This document shows positions 491-38,312 of a stretch of 48,564 nucleotides of DNA, in pieces; within the stretch, counting starts at the first letter, position 1, and the number at the start of each line of letters is the position of its first letter. A program made the position numbers and the translations under genes. Under the pieces are notes generated by a model. It had not been told where the DNA came from. It ran no database searches and saw nothing but the letters and a program-made list of their open reading frames with translations. The stretch comes from Clostridia bacterium (GTDB lineage: Bacteria > Bacillota > Clostridia > Oscillospirales > Acutalibacteraceae), in the NCBI GenBank assembly GCA_017626295.1, contig JAGAJB010000008.1:1-48564 (forward strand), given 5' to 3'.

Positions 491-3400
491 TTATTCGTCG
501 GAATCGAGTTTATCCAAGGCTTTTGACATATTGGAATAGTATTTATAGTAACCGGTATTCCAAATCTCAGCCTTAATACGTTCTTTTTCTGTTGGCGAGG
601 TTGCAGACTTATACTCCTCTTTGAGAACCGAAACTTCCCAACCTTTAGCAGTTTTTTCCGCATCATCGTAAAGACCTGTGGCTTCAAGTTCGGAAATAAT
701 TCTCTGTTTTTCACTTTGTGAAGACTCAACATATAATGTTTTATATTTTTCTGTGGTATAACTAAGTTCCCATTTATAAAGCGTTTCATCCAAATCGTTG
801 TACAAATTTGTACCGTCAAGAAGTTCTTTGATTTCTTCCTGCTCGTACTCGGAAGCCTCAAGGTATAACGGTTTCCAATAACTTGTTACTTGATTACGGA
901 TATTTTCTTTTGCGGTTTCTTCAGTCTTACCGTTCTGAACCGCTGCGGAAACAATATCATCTATAACGGTCTGAACGGCGCCACCTGTTTCGATAGCGTT
1001 ATTAAGATCCTCGTAGGTATACAAACTATATGCTTTGTCGGTACTTCCTTCCTCACCGTCATCCATAAGTTTATTATACACCTTATCAACTGATTTACGG
1101 ATATTCTCATTTGAGAAGCCGTCTGCAGAAAGACCTTTAACGCACTGACCGTAAAGAGTAGCGTTACCGTCGCGCCGTGCTTCTGCAGCCTGAGTAACAC
1201 GTTCATCATATTCAACAAGTCCGTTGCGGATTGCAGAATTAACTTTTTCGGAATCGCTTTCGTATTCCTCTTTAAGAAGTTTTTCGTAGGCTTTGTAGTT
1301 ACCTTGTTTTATTGCGTTATACAGTTGTTCATCTGCAGCACCGAAAAACGTTTCTTCTACAAAGTTTTTCACTTTATTAAGGAATCCCTCTGAGAATTCA
1401 TCCTTCAGCGCTTTTTTGATACCTTCTCCGCTGGTGTCCTTTATATTCTTCTGTACAGATACTTTCTCACCTTCCTCATTTTCCTTTTGGAAACCGAAGA
1501 TACCGGCACAGACGTTATAAGCAGCACGAAAATCACGCATAACATTTTTAACGGGCAGTCCTAAAAAGGCAGCAAGCGCACCTGCAGTATCCTCAACTTT
1601 ACGGTAACTTGATTTTTTATCACTACCAAGAGAATTAACCGCGTTATAAAGGTCCTGCACCAAAGACATATCGGCACGTTCAATACTGTATCCGTTAAAT
1701 ATAGAAAGCACATCTTTTACCCAGGGTAATAATGTTAACGGATTAAGGTCATTAACTATGCCACCTGCAACTGAAGAAATGTATTTTTCAACAAGTGTTT
1801 TTTCTTCGTCATCATCACGCGCGGCGGTAACAAGTGTTTTCAATATATTATTAAAGATAACGGATGCAACAAAAGCACCGATATATCTTCCACCCTGTTT
1901 TTTATCACCGTGTTTTAAATTGGCGGCGGCATCAACTAGCATATTGAGGGCAGTTGTAGGCTCTGCCATAAATGCCATTGACATTTTAGCGCCTGTATCC
2001 TTAGAACGCATATACTCGGACTTTGAGAAAACAGAATCATAAACCTGTGTGAGTTCCACTACTTCAGCAAAACGTTCTCCGCTTTTCTTAAGAAGTTCTT
2101 CACCGCTGAGTTTATATTTATCCGCTGTCTCCGCTTTTACGGCATTCCACAAGTGACACCAGGTTATTTCGTCCATCTTCTCAGGAGCCTTCGATAGAAC
2201 ATCATCTCGGAAGGAACTATCTTTTAACAGTGCCGCTGCTTTATTTTTTGCACCTTTATATTCGCGTGAAAGCAACCATTCTTTTGTAGACTGGCCTATG
2301 GAGTTATCGAAGAAACCCATAGATTTAACACGCGCTATGGGTGCATACTTTATAAGTTCATCATAATCGCGCTTAGTAAACGTGGTTTTAGCGAAATATT
2401 TGGTATCAACCTCAGCAAGGGCGCGGGCTATGGCGGAAGGCTGCTGAATGGCTACCGATGCAGAGGCAAATACCGCACCTTTTTTAAATAAAGACAAGGC
2501 TTTATTCATAACGGTAGGTGTAGCAGAAGCGTGAACACCACCGTTTACATCCTTTATAAAGTTTTCAATATATGACACTGCACCTTTACCGCAAGCAGTT
2601 TCAATACGGGATTTTACAGAGGCAGGGCTACCGTTACTGCTCCTGCAGTTAAATACTCTTGTGAAATCATCAAGGGGGAGCGCGAAAGAGTGGAACATTG
2701 CCATTTGTTGCACGTGTTCAGCCCACATATCATCGAAATTACGAAGAAGAATGGGATTATTTGCATTTTCCTGTAAATCCTTCATAACCGAAGTACTGAG
2801 AACACTGCGAACTTCAGGCTCTTTCATAGTACCATCAAGGAACTCTCGGGCAACTTTAATCGGGAAATATTTATCCTCTACAAATTTATTCATATCATAA
2901 AGTTGACGTGTAATTTCGTTACCTTTAACCGCAAGCCCCTTTGCCAAATAATCGCGCATTTCGTTAGCGTATGCTTTCTGTTCCGCTGTAAGCGTTTCAG
3001 CGAATAAATCCAAATCACTTTCGGTAAGGTGATGAGTACCTGCATCGCGTTTACGCCATGCGCGTGTTTTAGCACCTTTGGAATTGCCCTTGCGGTCCTC
3101 TATAACCTTATAGGCATCCTCAAAAACGAAACCGCCTTTCATAGAATCAGTCTTTTCTCCGCGTTTGTGGCCTATAAGATGGGGAATGTACTGTTCACGT
3201 TGAGAAGCAACATAGAGCATCATAAGTTGCTGAATGCTGAATGTAAATGTATCACCGCTTTCAAGGGTAAGTTCCTTTTTGTCATCCGCCCAGGTATCTT
3301 TATGATATTTTCCACCGATAGAAAGGATCTTCTCGCGTGCTTCGGCAATATCAACCGCCCAGGTATCTTCACCTTTACGGATATTGTTCATAAGTTCCGA

Positions 3401-10281: not shown

Positions 10282-12039
10282 TCATCCTTCCGTTATAATA
10301 TAATCCGCCAAATACATACCGTTGATGTATATGTATTTACCTGCTGTAATTTCAGTTGACGACCTGACTGTAATTTCACCTGTTTTATATCTGATATTGC
10401 ACGAAAGTTCCGCACCTTGCGAATACACCGAAAGCGGTGTAAGAAAAAGCGGGGCTTTGTTAGATACAATAGCCACAACATAATCCGTATTTGCAGGTAT
10501 AGTTTTTTCAACTGTCAAACGCAAACGGATATATACCATATCAAGACACGAATAAAATCTTGCGTATGAATACAATTCCGTTAACCCCTCGGATACCGCA
10601 ACCGGAGTCGGCTCATAAACCAACTTTCCCAAAACGTTTAAATCCCAGTAGCACATCAACTCATCATCATTAGTTGCATATCCACCGAAGGCTGCACCGT
10701 TACCGCCTTTACGAATATTAAACGATATTCCTGCAGTTGCGATAGAGCGAGTTGATTTCGCGTCTTTTCCGAGTGAATCGGTAATAACCAGTGTTACCGT
10801 ATACGCTGAACTTTTTGAAATTTCGCCTTCACCTATAATAAGCGGTGAAGGGGTTGTAACAGCAAACTCCTCTTCCGCCGCACTTCCCTGTTTACGAAAT
10901 TTAAGCATTATATCAGCATTATTATCCAAAAGGCTTTCAAACCCCGAAGAATATTCAACACGAAGATATGTACCTTCAGCATTATCTGTACCTTGTTCAT
11001 CGCAACGTTTCAAAGATAATATTTTGATTTTAGGGGGAGAATATGCGTAAACATTTATTTTGGTTTCCTCTTCGTGATAGTTTCCTCTTGTATCAGTAAC
11101 ACGAATAACTATGCTTTGTTCTCCGTAACCCAAAACATCAAAACGGGATGAGTTTACGTTCTTAGTAATACCATTGTATTTAATACTAACGCTTTTAAAA
11201 TCTGCACCGTATTTATACTCTATGTTACTGAATTTTGCTTTAAACTGACTTACACCGCTGACAAATGCATCCCATTCATCCGGGACACCGTTGTTTATTT
11301 TTTCAATAGTTATATCAAAACTCGGTGCATATTCGGTAAAATTAGGAATTGTAAACATTATATGATATTTTTTGTATCCTATAAGGTCATCACCGTCGTA
11401 CGTTCCTAAACCAATGTTTAACGTAACTGTTTTTGTATCAGTAACATAAGAAGCCCACGATTTCGGAATAGTAATACTACCTGTCATTTCGCCCACATCA
11501 CACTCAGTCATTTGTTTTGGGTTTGTACCTATTTGACAGGATATTTTATGAGAAAAAGAAGAAGAACCTATAATTGAATAGGAAAAACTGTTGCCGGGTG
11601 TTATCCAGGTTGTATCGCCTAAATCCAAAGACGAAGCACGAAGTATTCTGGTGCATCTGAAATAACCGCTGGCACTACCGGATTTAAGGCTACTATTTCC
11701 CATAGTAAAAGAACCACTGACTGCCAAAAGCAATTCACCTTTGGTATCGTGCTTAACATTACCCGTCCAGGTTGCAAGCACAACAACCGCACTGTTTCTT
11801 GTATCAATTTTTCGGGTACCGCTACTTTTCACTTCAACGCCTACGGAAAGCGAAAAATTATTATCATCTGCATTTAAGTTATACGCTGATGAAGCATAAC
11901 CATCGTTACGCTGAAGTTTTAAAGATACGGTTACATTACTTGTATTGTTCTTTAAATTTTGAGAATTTTGTGTTACATCAAGCCATACATCATACTTCGC
12001 TGCAGAATTACCCGTACAAGTACCGTTTATTTTAGCCAT
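10282..12039 (-). CDS. Phage minor structural protein, DUF859-like
   Basis: The 585-residue protein starts MAKINGTCTGNSAAKYDVWL and continues with beta-rich, Ser/Gly/Asn-rich sequence. This pattern matches DUF859 proteins, which are found among tail or distal structural genes of Firmicutes phages. The second half has repeated beta-strand patterns and a C-terminal region (NIRKGGNGAAFGGYATNDDE) of the kind found in tail-tip or fibre proteins. GGAGG stands 9 bases before the ATG, and the start overlaps the end of the neighbouring coiled-coil gene by 8 bases. Receptor or cell-surface contact is likely but inferred. Confidence 0.75.
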   Translation of the reverse strand: MAKINGTCTGNSAAKYDVWLDVTQNSQNLKNNTSNVTVSLKLQRNDGYASSAYNLNADDNNFSLSVGVEVKSSGTRKIDTRNSAVVVLATWTGNVKHDTKGELLLAVSGSFTMGNSSLKSGSASGYFRCTRILRASSLDLGDTTWITPGNSFSYSIIGSSSFSHKISCQIGTNPKQMTECDVGEMTGSITIPKSWASYVTDTKTVTLNIGLGTYDGDDLIGYKKYHIMFTIPNFTEYAPSFDITIEKINNGVPDEWDAFVSGVSQFKAKFSNIEYKYGADFKSVSIKYNGITKNVNSSRFDVLGYGEQSIVIRVTDTRGNYHEEETKINVYAYSPPKIKILSLKRCDEQGTDNAEGTYLRVEYSSGFESLLDNNADIMLKFRKQGSAAEEEFAVTTPSPLIIGEGEISKSSAYTVTLVITDSLGKDAKSTRSIATAGISFNIRKGGNGAAFGGYATNDDELMCYWDLNVLGKLVYEPTPVAVSEGLTELYSYARFYSCLDMVYIRLRLTVEKTIPANTDYVVAIVSNKAPLFLTPLSVYSQGAELSCNIRYKTGEITVRSSTEITAGKYIYINGMYLADYIITEG

Positions 12040-31013: not shown

Positions 31014-31364
31014 TCAATTCAACAAACTTAATAAATCAAGTTCAATAATGTTGCTTTCAGTTTTCGGGGGGATAATTTTCATAGTATATTCCACCCTTAC
31101 ACCCGGCATATAATACTCAGCAGCCATTTTGTAAACTGCAAAATCACTGCAAGCCCAACGGTTTAATCCCTTTGCAATTTTATCAATACATTTTTTGAAA
31201 CTACCGCCTTCAACTACTGCTTTCGCAAAATCATCGTTTTGCCGGCAGAAATATATGAGGGCTTCCGCTGTCGGACCTGCAATTGTCTTGTCCCAGTTAT
31301 TTTGGTAAAGACTTTGGTCGCTGTCTTTTCTTAACTTCGCTTCGGCTTCAACAAAGTATGCCAT
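31014..31364 (-). CDS. PcfK-like protein
   Basis: This 116-residue helical protein contains SFKKCIDKIAKGLNRWACSD and AEYYMPGVRVEYTMKI, the pattern of PcfK-like proteins that occur beside PcfJ on pCF10-type plasmids and on many phages. Its role is unknown. It uses the AGGAGTGTTAA start context. The tRNA-like element lies 32 bases upstream on the same strand. Confidence 0.75.
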   Translation of the reverse strand: MAYFVEAEAKLRKDSDQSLYQNNWDKTIAGPTAEALIYFCRQNDDFAKAVVEGGSFKKCIDKIAKGLNRWACSDFAVYKMAAEYYMPGVRVEYTMKIIPPKTESNIIELDLLSLLN

Positions 31365-31440
31365 TGTTTAACACTCCTTTTATTTAATTTTCAAAATGGT
31401 GCAGGGCGGCGGAATTGAACCGCCACGGTTAAGGTGTTAA

Positions 31441-31446
31441 TATAAT
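31441..31446 (+). promoter_or_regulatory. Plus-strand -10 box of the mini unit
   Basis: TATAAT (31441-31446) lies 36 bases before the small ATG. The best -35-like hexamer, TTGAAC (31415-31420), is 20 bases upstream, longer than the usual 17. The box is inside the tRNA-like element but on the other strand. Confidence 0.4.
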
Positions 31447-31476
31447 GTTCGCGTTAATTTTTTCAGGAGGTACTTT

Positions 31477-31521
31477 ATGGGTCAACATAAAGACTTGTTT
31501 TTTCACCTATGCCCAAGGTAA
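31477..31521 (+). CDS. 14-codon ORF with strong ribosome binding site (leader peptide-like)
   Basis: The frame encodes MGQHKDLFFHLCPR and stops at TAA 31519-31521. CAGGAGG at 31464-31470 is a near-perfect ribosome binding site 6 bases before the ATG. A promoter-like box lies upstream and a terminator at 31551-31577 closes the unit, so the stretch looks like a complete mini gene. The ATG is the 3' part of a 7-bp stem (CTTTATG with CATAAAG), so the start codon would be masked when that hairpin forms. The unit lies antisense to the tRNA-like element. No known leader peptide is recognised. Confidence 0.45.
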   Translation: MGQHKDLFFHLCPR

Positions 31522-31550
31522 TTTAACCGCTGACCTCAACCCTGCATATT

Positions 31551-31577
31551 GCCCGTCTTTCCGGGCTGTATTTTTTA
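31551..31577 (+). terminator. Terminator of the plus-strand mini unit
   Basis: GCCCG, a 6-base loop, CGGGC and then TGTATTTTTT form an intrinsic terminator on the plus strand. It ends at the stop codon of the minus gene at 31578. On the minus strand the same hairpin precedes the tRNA-like element by 5 bases but lacks a T-run. Confidence 0.7.
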
Positions 31578-32090
31578 TTACGACGCCAACTTGTCCGCCC
31601 TGTAGGTGCTGACATAGTTTTCAATGTACTTCACTTCACGTTCGGTCAGACCGCGGGGCATACCCTCGGAATTCACCGCAACGAAAATAACGTCACCGTA
31701 GTAAATCTTCTCGGCGCGGCCGTCTGTCATACAGGGCGCCGCCTGTTTTGCGAAACTGTCGGTATCGTAGAACATCTTTATATCCATACCAATATCGACT
31801 ACACCGGGGTTTTCCGCATCAAGTTCACGGTGAATCGCCTTAAAATTGTTTGCAACATTGTGTTTACGTTCGGGCGCTCTGCCCGGAGCCTTTAAAATAA
31901 CGAACATAATACCTTTCCTTTCTGCTATGTATGCTTCCGTTGCCCACACAAAAGCACGGGCATACTTTTTAACTTTCCTTTTGACCTTACGTTCAAACTT
32001 TGCAAGGTGATCTTCCTTATATAGTGCAAACCCACCAAGGAAAATAAGGCCGACGTTAATAAAAAAATTCAAAATTGTTGCTGTACTCAT
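31578..32090 (-). CDS. Hypothetical membrane-anchored phage protein
   Basis: This 170-residue protein starts with a hydrophobic segment (ILNFFINVGLIFLGGFALY, residues ~5-23), then a basic stretch (KFERKVKRKVKKYARAF) and a soluble alpha/beta domain (IMFVILKAPGR, then KIYYGDVIFVAVNSEG). Its codon use is GC-richer than the neighbouring early genes, so it may be a later acquisition. GGGAG precedes the ATG. Function unknown; an inner-membrane anchor facing the cytoplasm is likely. Confidence 0.6.
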   Translation of the reverse strand: MSTATILNFFINVGLIFLGGFALYKEDHLAKFERKVKRKVKKYARAFVWATEAYIAERKGIMFVILKAPGRAPERKHNVANNFKAIHRELDAENPGVVDIGMDIKMFYDTDSFAKQAAPCMTDGRAEKIYYGDVIFVAVNSEGMPRGLTEREVKYIENYVSTYRADKLAS

Positions 32091-38235: not shown

Positions 38236-38312
38236 GGAGGCGTAGCTCAGTTGGCTAGAGCACTTGCTTGACGTGCAAGGGGTCACAGGTTCGAGCCCTG
38301 TCGTCTCCACCA
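38236..38312 (+). tRNA. tRNA-Val (GAC)
   Basis: 77 bases with CCA encoded. The acceptor GGAGGCG pairs with CGTCTCC (one G-U), the D-arm is GCTC/GAGC, and the anticodon arm CTTGC-TTGACGT-GCAAG has anticodon GAC (38270-38272). The T-arm is ACAGG-TTCGAGC-CCTGT. All parts are canonical. Confidence 0.97.

Follow-up and report, generated by a model that had tools for sequence, protein, structure and literature searches.

A tRNA-like element without a canonical anticodon arm lies between two genes of a Clostridia prophage and has a counterpart in a distant phage

A prophage in the genome (2.4 Mb) of a Clostridia bacterium carries a tRNA-like element that is probably a real structure, because a distant phage keeps its shape and place with different letters. 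The element lies on the minus strand at 31397-31545 of the window, by which we mean the whole 48,564-nt stretch of DNA analysed, with which a 168-kb contig begins. Comparison of the two phage sequences supports an RNA with an acceptor helix (P1), a canonical T-arm, a short linker and a further helix (P2) placed against the T-stem, whose pairs have been kept by compensatory change. It likewise supports the view that P2 occupies the position of the variable region and anticodon arm of a tRNA.

The prophage has genes for a replication initiation protein, a PcfJ-like protein, a repressor-type protein and an integrase, and the long minus-strand open reading frames further left are presumably its terminase, portal, capsid and tail genes. 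The element sits in its leftward gene cluster, in a 213-nt gap separating two co-oriented minus-strand genes. The upstream gene (31578-32090) encodes 170 amino acids and has no Pfam or PHROG match; the downstream gene (31014-31364) encodes 116 amino acids and matches phrog_38338, a family of unknown function.

Read on the minus strand, the RNA spans 149 nt including CCA. Its 5′ acceptor strand, GCAGGGU (31539-31545, with G1 at 31545), pairs at all seven positions, one of them G-U, with GCCCUGC (31401-31407), which is followed by ACCA (31397-31400), that is, discriminator A73 and an encoded CCA. The T-arm GGCGG-UUCAAUU-CCGCC occupies 31408-31424. Sequence comparison places the linker UGAGGUCA at 31531-31538; together with the next bases it contains GGUCAGC (31535..31529). 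P2 joins GCGGUUAA (31523-31530) to UUAACCGU (31425-31432), which abuts the T-stem, through eight of eight pairs (one G-U), and is closed by a 90-nt loop (31433-31522). Directly before G1 is the leader AUAU (31546-31549), a proposed RNase P site.

A sequence-only reading of the same DNA had described a tRNA-like element here, and the 7-bp acceptor with CCA, the perfect T-arm and the roughly 90 bases in place of an anticodon arm are as it reported them. Its extent of 31397-31577 was too long, as the tRNA-like part ends at 31545. The D-like arm with GG that it named is present on the minus strand as AGGT..GG..ACCT, with 91 nt from ACCT to the T-stem, but it overlaps P2, the helix that covariation supports. 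The AGGU/ACCU stem has the same letters in both phages, so it shows no covariation, and in both it could coexist with P2 only in a pseudoknot whose first loop measures 2 nt. A 5-bp AGGUG/CACCU pairing is possible next to P2 in the window element. By eye, we saw no canonical anticodon arm in this element.

Among 22 genomes of the genus, including the window's own, DNA similar to 26-34 kb of the window was found in one other genome, G004. Homologues of 9 of the 21 window proteins tried are encoded there, with identities of 52% for the replication protein, 35% for the 170-aa protein and 43% for the 116-aa protein. At the corresponding locus, L048, a tRNA-like element lies between the same two genes and on the same strand (10702..10523; copy 1), and a tandem 55-nt element follows it (10519..10465; copy 2). 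A homologue in another phage, whose absence the sequence-only reading had named as grounds for giving the element up, therefore exists. Copy 1 has the acceptor GGGAACG/CGTTCCC and a T-arm identical to that of the window; its P2 loop measures 119 nt, and the insert is unrelated to the window's in sequence and length. Copy 2 has the acceptor TGCAGGT/ACTTGCA and the T-arm GACGG-TTCAGCT-CCGTC, with only 20 nt from acceptor to T-stem. Neither copy encodes CCA, the corresponding bases being CAAA in copy 1 and AAAA in copy 2. The linkers contain GGUCAGC (window), GGUUCGGC (copy 1) and GGUCGGC (copy 2), which have GGU(U)CRGC in common, a motif noted after the fact. The leader AUAU|G also precedes copy 1, copy 2 when G is taken as the start of its acceptor, and the host's own tmRNA (L259). 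Extra sequence and small open reading frames lie ahead of the 116-aa gene homologue in L048. The 170-aa gene has a full-length homologue in L048 only (a match in L055 was taken as the same G004 contig), and its remaining genome matches cover the N-terminal part alone.

With the acceptor and T-arm enforced, the window RNA and L048 copy 1 both formed P2, and in an identical register: its 5′ strand starts 8 nt after P1 and its 3′ strand ends 0 nt before the T-stem. In copy 1 the helix is GGCUUUUUU/AAAAAAGUC, largely a U-run against an A-run. A P2 this long arose in 37 of 5000 shuffles for the window and in 4 of 5000 for copy 1. We aligned the two cores over 59 columns in two rows, with register and structure chosen by us for this fold; all 40 cells were paired, and 11 of the 20 pairs had changed on both sides. 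These changes comprise six of the seven acceptor pairs and five of the eight in P2, while the T-stem was identical. When the partners were slid by 1-3 columns, pairing fell to 40-55%, and the observed values were reached by 2 of 500 letter shuffles. Between these two sequences the acceptor covaries, so that the want of covariation named by the sequence-only reading as a refutation does not apply to it; the T-stem, being identical, says nothing on the point. The suggestion of a tRNA mimic gains support from a fold that recurs at the same place in another phage with compensatory changes. In the 55-nt copy 2, P2 could have at most 3 bp, and no abutting helix of 4 was found.

Could the fold be a product of chance? 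Scanning for a 5-bp T-stem with a TTCRANY loop, a 7-bp acceptor and NCCA over spans of 60-260 nt returned two places in the window, the element and a tRNA-Val gene at 38236; when the complete window was dinucleotide-shuffled 150 times and both strands were scanned, it returned nothing. A looser form without CCA was matched in 1 of 4000 shuffles of the 213-nt gap. For the gap in L048, at least one element appeared in 3 of 4000 shuffles and two in 0 of 4000. The case rests on two phages, and a covariance model built from them has little power; against these nulls and the compensatory change at a syntenic site, we consider a chance fold hardly credible.

Standard detectors passed the element by. 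ARAGORN did not report it, either as a tRNA with introns allowed or in tmRNA mode. At gathering thresholds Rfam gave no match there, RF00005 matching only the tRNA-Val gene at 38236; with E raised to 10 it gave just two weak, unrelated matches at the element and none to tRNA or tmRNA. Similar mimics could therefore sit unseen in other phages.

The T-arm 17-mer was scarce in these hosts. It occurred in 3 of 300 genomes of the family (the window's own, a tRNA-Thr gene and a chromosomal hairpin; G004 lay outside this sample) and in 1 of 391 genomes of the class, again the window's own. With one loop base free, it was present in 2 of the 22 genus genomes, the window's own and G004, both times at this site. 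In the host genome it occurs once, and the element lies 3.3 kb from the integrase gene, on its inward side; we accordingly rejected the idea that a host tRNA had left it behind as an attachment-site remnant.

It is very improbable that the element is a tRNA gene that decayed, was split or carries an intron. The element does resemble a tRNA (RF00005) in its 7-bp acceptor, its T-arm with a UUCRANY loop, its CCA and the GG in its D-like loop. When the linkers were compared with 35 tRNA D-regions, only 12 of 3000 random stretches did as well as the window, which with the encoded CCA speaks for a tRNA ancestry; the corresponding figures were 878 for copy 1 and 1768 for copy 2. Unlike in a tRNA, however, no canonical anticodon stem-loop of 5 bp and 7 nt was seen in the element, and its P2 abuts the T-stem. 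The loop in L048 is unrelated and yet the P1 and P2 pairs are kept, as decay would not do, and the T-arm is found nowhere else in the host genome. The same evidence leaves without support a tRNA split by a tiny gene, as the sequence-only reading had alternatively proposed: ARAGORN with introns reports nothing at the element, the insert differs in L048 and copy 2 has only 20 nt in its place.

The sequence-only reading had also placed a complete mini transcription unit on the plus strand of the same DNA. Its parts are there: TATAAT (31441-31446), CAGGAGG (31464-31470, in which AGGAGG at 31465..31470 is a Shine-Dalgarno [SD] sequence on the plus strand and CCUCCU on the minus strand), and a 14-codon open reading frame, MGQHKDLFFHLCPR, running from ATG at 31477 to TAA (31477-31521), with the ATG inside the stem CTTTATG/CATAAAG. 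The terminator-like hairpin GCCCG-TCTTTC-CGGGC (31551-31566), followed by TGTATTTTTT, lies immediately past the stop codon of the 170-aa gene on the minus strand. Two components of the unit stood up. L048 has a hairpin, AAGCG-TCTTTC-CGCTT (10729-10744), with the same loop at the same place, three outer pairs changed, before a T-run. On both strands, the window has no AGGAGG-N4-9-start site other than this one, which was equalled in 6 of 5000 shuffled inserts. The remainder did not. TATAAT has no -35 element at 16-18 nt, the best SD in L048 does no better than chance (equalled in 1112 of 3000 shuffles), and L048 has no open reading frame similar to MGQHKDLFFHLCPR, its peptides being without similarity. 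Conservation lends the 14-codon open reading frame no support.

Nearby, the plus strand has a single promoter-like site (31368-31397, 9/12), which is separate from TATAAT, and none was found on that strand in the L048 region. Promoter-like sites in the window region numbered 4, against 2.5 ± 1.3 in shuffles, which is no excess, and terminator-like sites 1, against 1.5 ± 1.1; the L048 region had 6 terminator-like sites against 2.4 expected. A short plus-strand transcript across the element is possible. The wider proposal that the plus strand is the functional one, through a short antisense transcript or a leader-peptide minigene ending at the TCTTTC terminator, with the tRNA-like fold secondary, is nevertheless improbable. 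P1 and P2 together hold two G-U pairs in the window and one in copy 1 in the minus orientation, with one more in P1 of copy 2; these would be A-C mismatches on the plus strand, which makes the minus strand the likelier one to fold. The UUCRANY T-loop also sits on the minus strand. The sequence-only reading had taken a G-U pair as a sign of selection on the minus strand, and the pairs in both helices point the same way.

The minus-strand loop of the tRNA-like RNA contains ACCUCCU at 31465-31471. We take this to be an anti-Shine-Dalgarno sequence, which could pair with SDs in trans. No sequence similarity to the loop of L048 copy 1 was noted.

In its layout the element comes closest to the tRNA-like domain (TLD) of tmRNA (RF00023). 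The window copy and L048 copy 1 share with it the order acceptor, linker with GGU, P2 and T-arm, the window copy has CCA, and the AUAU|G leader is that of the host tmRNA; in copy 2, with its P2 of at most 3 bp, this layout is not clear. Several hallmarks of tmRNA are absent. There is no G3-U70 alanine identity pair (A3-U70 in the window, G3-C70 in copy 1) and no GGAC before the T-stem, neither pseudoknots nor, by eye, a tag frame was seen, and the tmRNA mode of ARAGORN (-m) reports none in the window. A covariance match to RF00023 was lacking at E up to 10 in both the window element and L048. On these grounds, we rejected a working tmRNA. The evidence for a tmRNA origin is mixed, since the linker likenesses differ among the copies: in a comparison with ten tmRNA D-loops, which tests for sequence of the GGUUUCGAC type in the linkers, 18 of 3000 random stretches did as well as copy 1, 1198 of 3000 as well as the window and 1617 of 3000 as well as copy 2.

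Known RNAs of this kind offer a precedent. Mycobacteriophage DS6A is reported to carry an RNA consisting almost entirely of a tmRNA TLD, and a TLD-only molecule of this sort strongly inhibits tmRNA, perhaps by titrating SmpB (PMC4131195; PMC11915505). The element resembles the DS6A RNA in being phage-borne and in having the layout of a tRNA-like domain only, without a tag or coding part, a likeness drawn from the description of DS6A; copy 2, at 55 nt, is about the size of the plastid tmRNAs of ~65 bp that lack a coding sequence. Those forms, however, are recognised as tmRNA, whereas the element has neither an RF00023 match nor G3-U70, and the window copy and copy 1 have a long P2 loop.

We tentatively favour, at a level somewhat short of probable, the reading that the element is an anticodon-less tRNA-like RNA excised by RNase P, which acts as a TLD decoy with SmpB/tmRNA as its first candidate target. 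The element would be transcribed together with its neighbouring genes, RNase P would cut the transcript at AUAU|G, and the 3′ end would be finished by an encoded or added CCA. The freed RNA of ~149 nt, whose fold is supported, may be stable, and its P2 loop appears to tolerate unrelated sequence of different length. In the weakest step, it would serve in trans as a decoy for a protein that binds the tRNA body. The layout is that of a tmRNA TLD with a P2 stub but without tag or pseudoknots, so SmpB, and with it ribosome rescue by host tmRNA, is the first target to consider; other binders of the acceptor/T-arm half are possible targets too. The synteny, layout and strand shared with a distant prophage, the compensatory changes and the DS6A analogy suggest such a decoy, and the shared leaders suit a common RNase P context. 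Its occurrence in two phages only, the want of a tmRNA or tRNA match in Rfam and the preference of the free RNA for another fold count against it. If the element does titrate SmpB or another binder of the tRNA body, it would be a phage RNA attacking ribosome rescue, for which DS6A is the only published precedent that we found.

The main rival of the decoy is a pure processing signal, in which RNase P, with tRNA 3′ processing, cuts the mRNA between the 170-aa and 116-aa genes, the upstream hairpin protects the new 3′ end and the RNA has no task in trans. We judge this unlikely on balance, though several points speak for it. In both phages the element lies between two co-oriented genes, the AUAU|G leaders are as at the host tmRNA, and the tandem minimal copy in L048 has little beyond an acceptor and a T-arm. 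RNase P is reported to act on tmRNA precursors, mRNAs and phage regulatory RNAs (PMC4919922). A processing signal, however, would need neither a conserved P2 nor a loop of 90-119 nt, and no CCA is encoded in the L048 copies. Even as a pure processing signal, the element would suggest that phages punctuate their operons by RNase P.

The C4 antisense RNA of phages P1 and P7, an RNase P substrate, is likewise a small RNA of a temperate phage, and the element would share RNase P maturation with it if the proposed cut occurs; no C4 match, however, was among the Rfam matches of the element at E up to 10. Y RNAs build their Ro-binding stem from the two ends and have the tRNA-like part inside, whereas the ends of the element can pair as an acceptor. 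Bacterial Y RNAs of the YrlA type are non-coding RNAs described as tRNA mimics and also reported from mycobacteriophages (PMC12282133). Our literature search, which covered few subscription journals, brought up no description in which we recognised the element; one may be in print elsewhere.

Left to fold freely, the window RNA pairs GGUUGAGGU with ACCUUAACC, in a structure 2.1 kcal/mol better than the enforced one; acceptor pairs 5-7 open, with probabilities of 0.28, 0.01 and 0.01. This alternative helix would suit a cis-regulator or protein-binding site, at which the fold binds a tRNA-binding protein or competes with GGUUGAGGU/ACCUUAACC and so switches the 116-aa gene, and the CCA of the element lies ~17 nt upstream of the SD of that gene and 32 nt upstream of its start codon. 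L048 fits such a switch poorly. Copy 1, when free, gains 2.3 kcal/mol over its enforced fold but keeps 7 of 7 acceptor pairs, losing the first T-stem pair (0.08), and the extra sequence and small open reading frames there come before the gene. We therefore give cis-regulation little credence. In copy 2, the free fold and the enforced fold are the same.

Decoy and plus strand could also be combined. The element would then be a new kind of phage RNA, in which the D-like stem and P2 form a pseudoknot against the T-arm and the 15-48 contact of a tRNA has grown to a helix. It would block either ribosome rescue or a different host system that reads tRNAs, and on the other strand of its loop a short antisense gene, translated and ending at a conserved terminator, would control it. 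We regard this joint reading as distinctly unlikely.

Searches for further copies covered viral contigs, phages, plasmids and cellular genomes. An exact 28-mer found no homologue in viral contigs. DNA searches of phages, plasmids and 148 genomes (including the window's own) returned, besides the window, nothing or short weak matches. With both neighbouring proteins and the PcfJ-like protein as queries, viral contigs yielded none, and the 170-aa gene found no homologue in phage records. Our scan found no element in 21 viral loci related by early-gene alignment, one of which, L230, had a weak 57-nt match that we did not count as an element; nor did it find one in the host's second prophage (L049) or in five loci with homologues of the 116-aa gene (L050-L054). 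In eight scanned sequences (152,383 nt), every match apart from the elements described was a tRNA, except for one composite of adjacent tRNAs. A D-arm/T-arm gap pattern retrieved 50 stretches, none of which gave a long-span match fixed at its two ends; what matched had the size of a tRNA or ran across neighbouring tRNAs, with one 129-nt tRNA-like place in L227.

The covariance search that the sequence-only reading had proposed could be run with a two-row model (R1), but it recovered the window copy by its T-arm only, and a stretch in G017, its best new match at 26.5 bits, scored higher than the window. Absence elsewhere is therefore weakly tested by this model. The G017 match lies inside a coding gene, which we take to be methyltransferase-like, and was treated as chance. 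The R1 matches in L240 and L241 are tRNA-Met genes, and those in L011, L032, L176 and L258 were set aside. A plus-strand match to fstAT in L048 reached 20.3 bits against a gathering threshold of 72 and was likewise treated as chance.

Several of these searches turned up other structures. T-arm-like hairpins of the form GGCGG-TKCAATT-CCG.. are present in L011 (1541..1502), L032 (155..116), L176 (1551..1490) and L258 (1501-1546). In L011, L176 and L258 the hairpin precedes a gene for a CxxC protein, presumably zinc-ribbon-like, and we take a neighbouring gene in L011 and L176 to be sigma-factor-like. The N-terminal 49 residues of the 170-aa protein (31578-32090) are 49% identical to G000:C3:11021-11167 of the same genome, which adjoins a conserved chromosomal open reading frame, as if the phage gene and the host shared a segment.

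The exact T-arm occurs at 120 or more places in viral contigs; among those listed, 53 are tmRNA-like by a simple 3′-end pattern, 36 are tRNAs by ARAGORN and 31 are neither. Two viral contigs carry identical 133-nt RNAs (L073 305..173 and L138 210..78, minus strand). The L073 RNA scores 71.9 bits to RF00023 and is by its length far too short for a tag and pseudoknots; it appears to be a phage tmRNA with little beyond the TLD, as in DS6A. Another viral contig, L096, has a permuted tmRNA at 2292..1953 on the minus strand (RF04321, 110.6 bits; RF01850, 102 bits). Viral tRNA-like places spanning ~100-270 nt and lying outside the ARAGORN (no-intron) calls were seen in L062, L127, L158, L142, L124 and L210; some may be tRNAs with short inserts and some composites of neighbouring tRNAs. 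Finally, L064 (3599-3662) contains a 64-nt tRNA-like RNA, which recurs in L093 and L129 and, with one base changed, in L163. It has an acceptor, a D-arm, a T-arm and CCA, with only 11 nt between the D-arm and the T-stem, and in L064 it scores 49 bits to RF00005.
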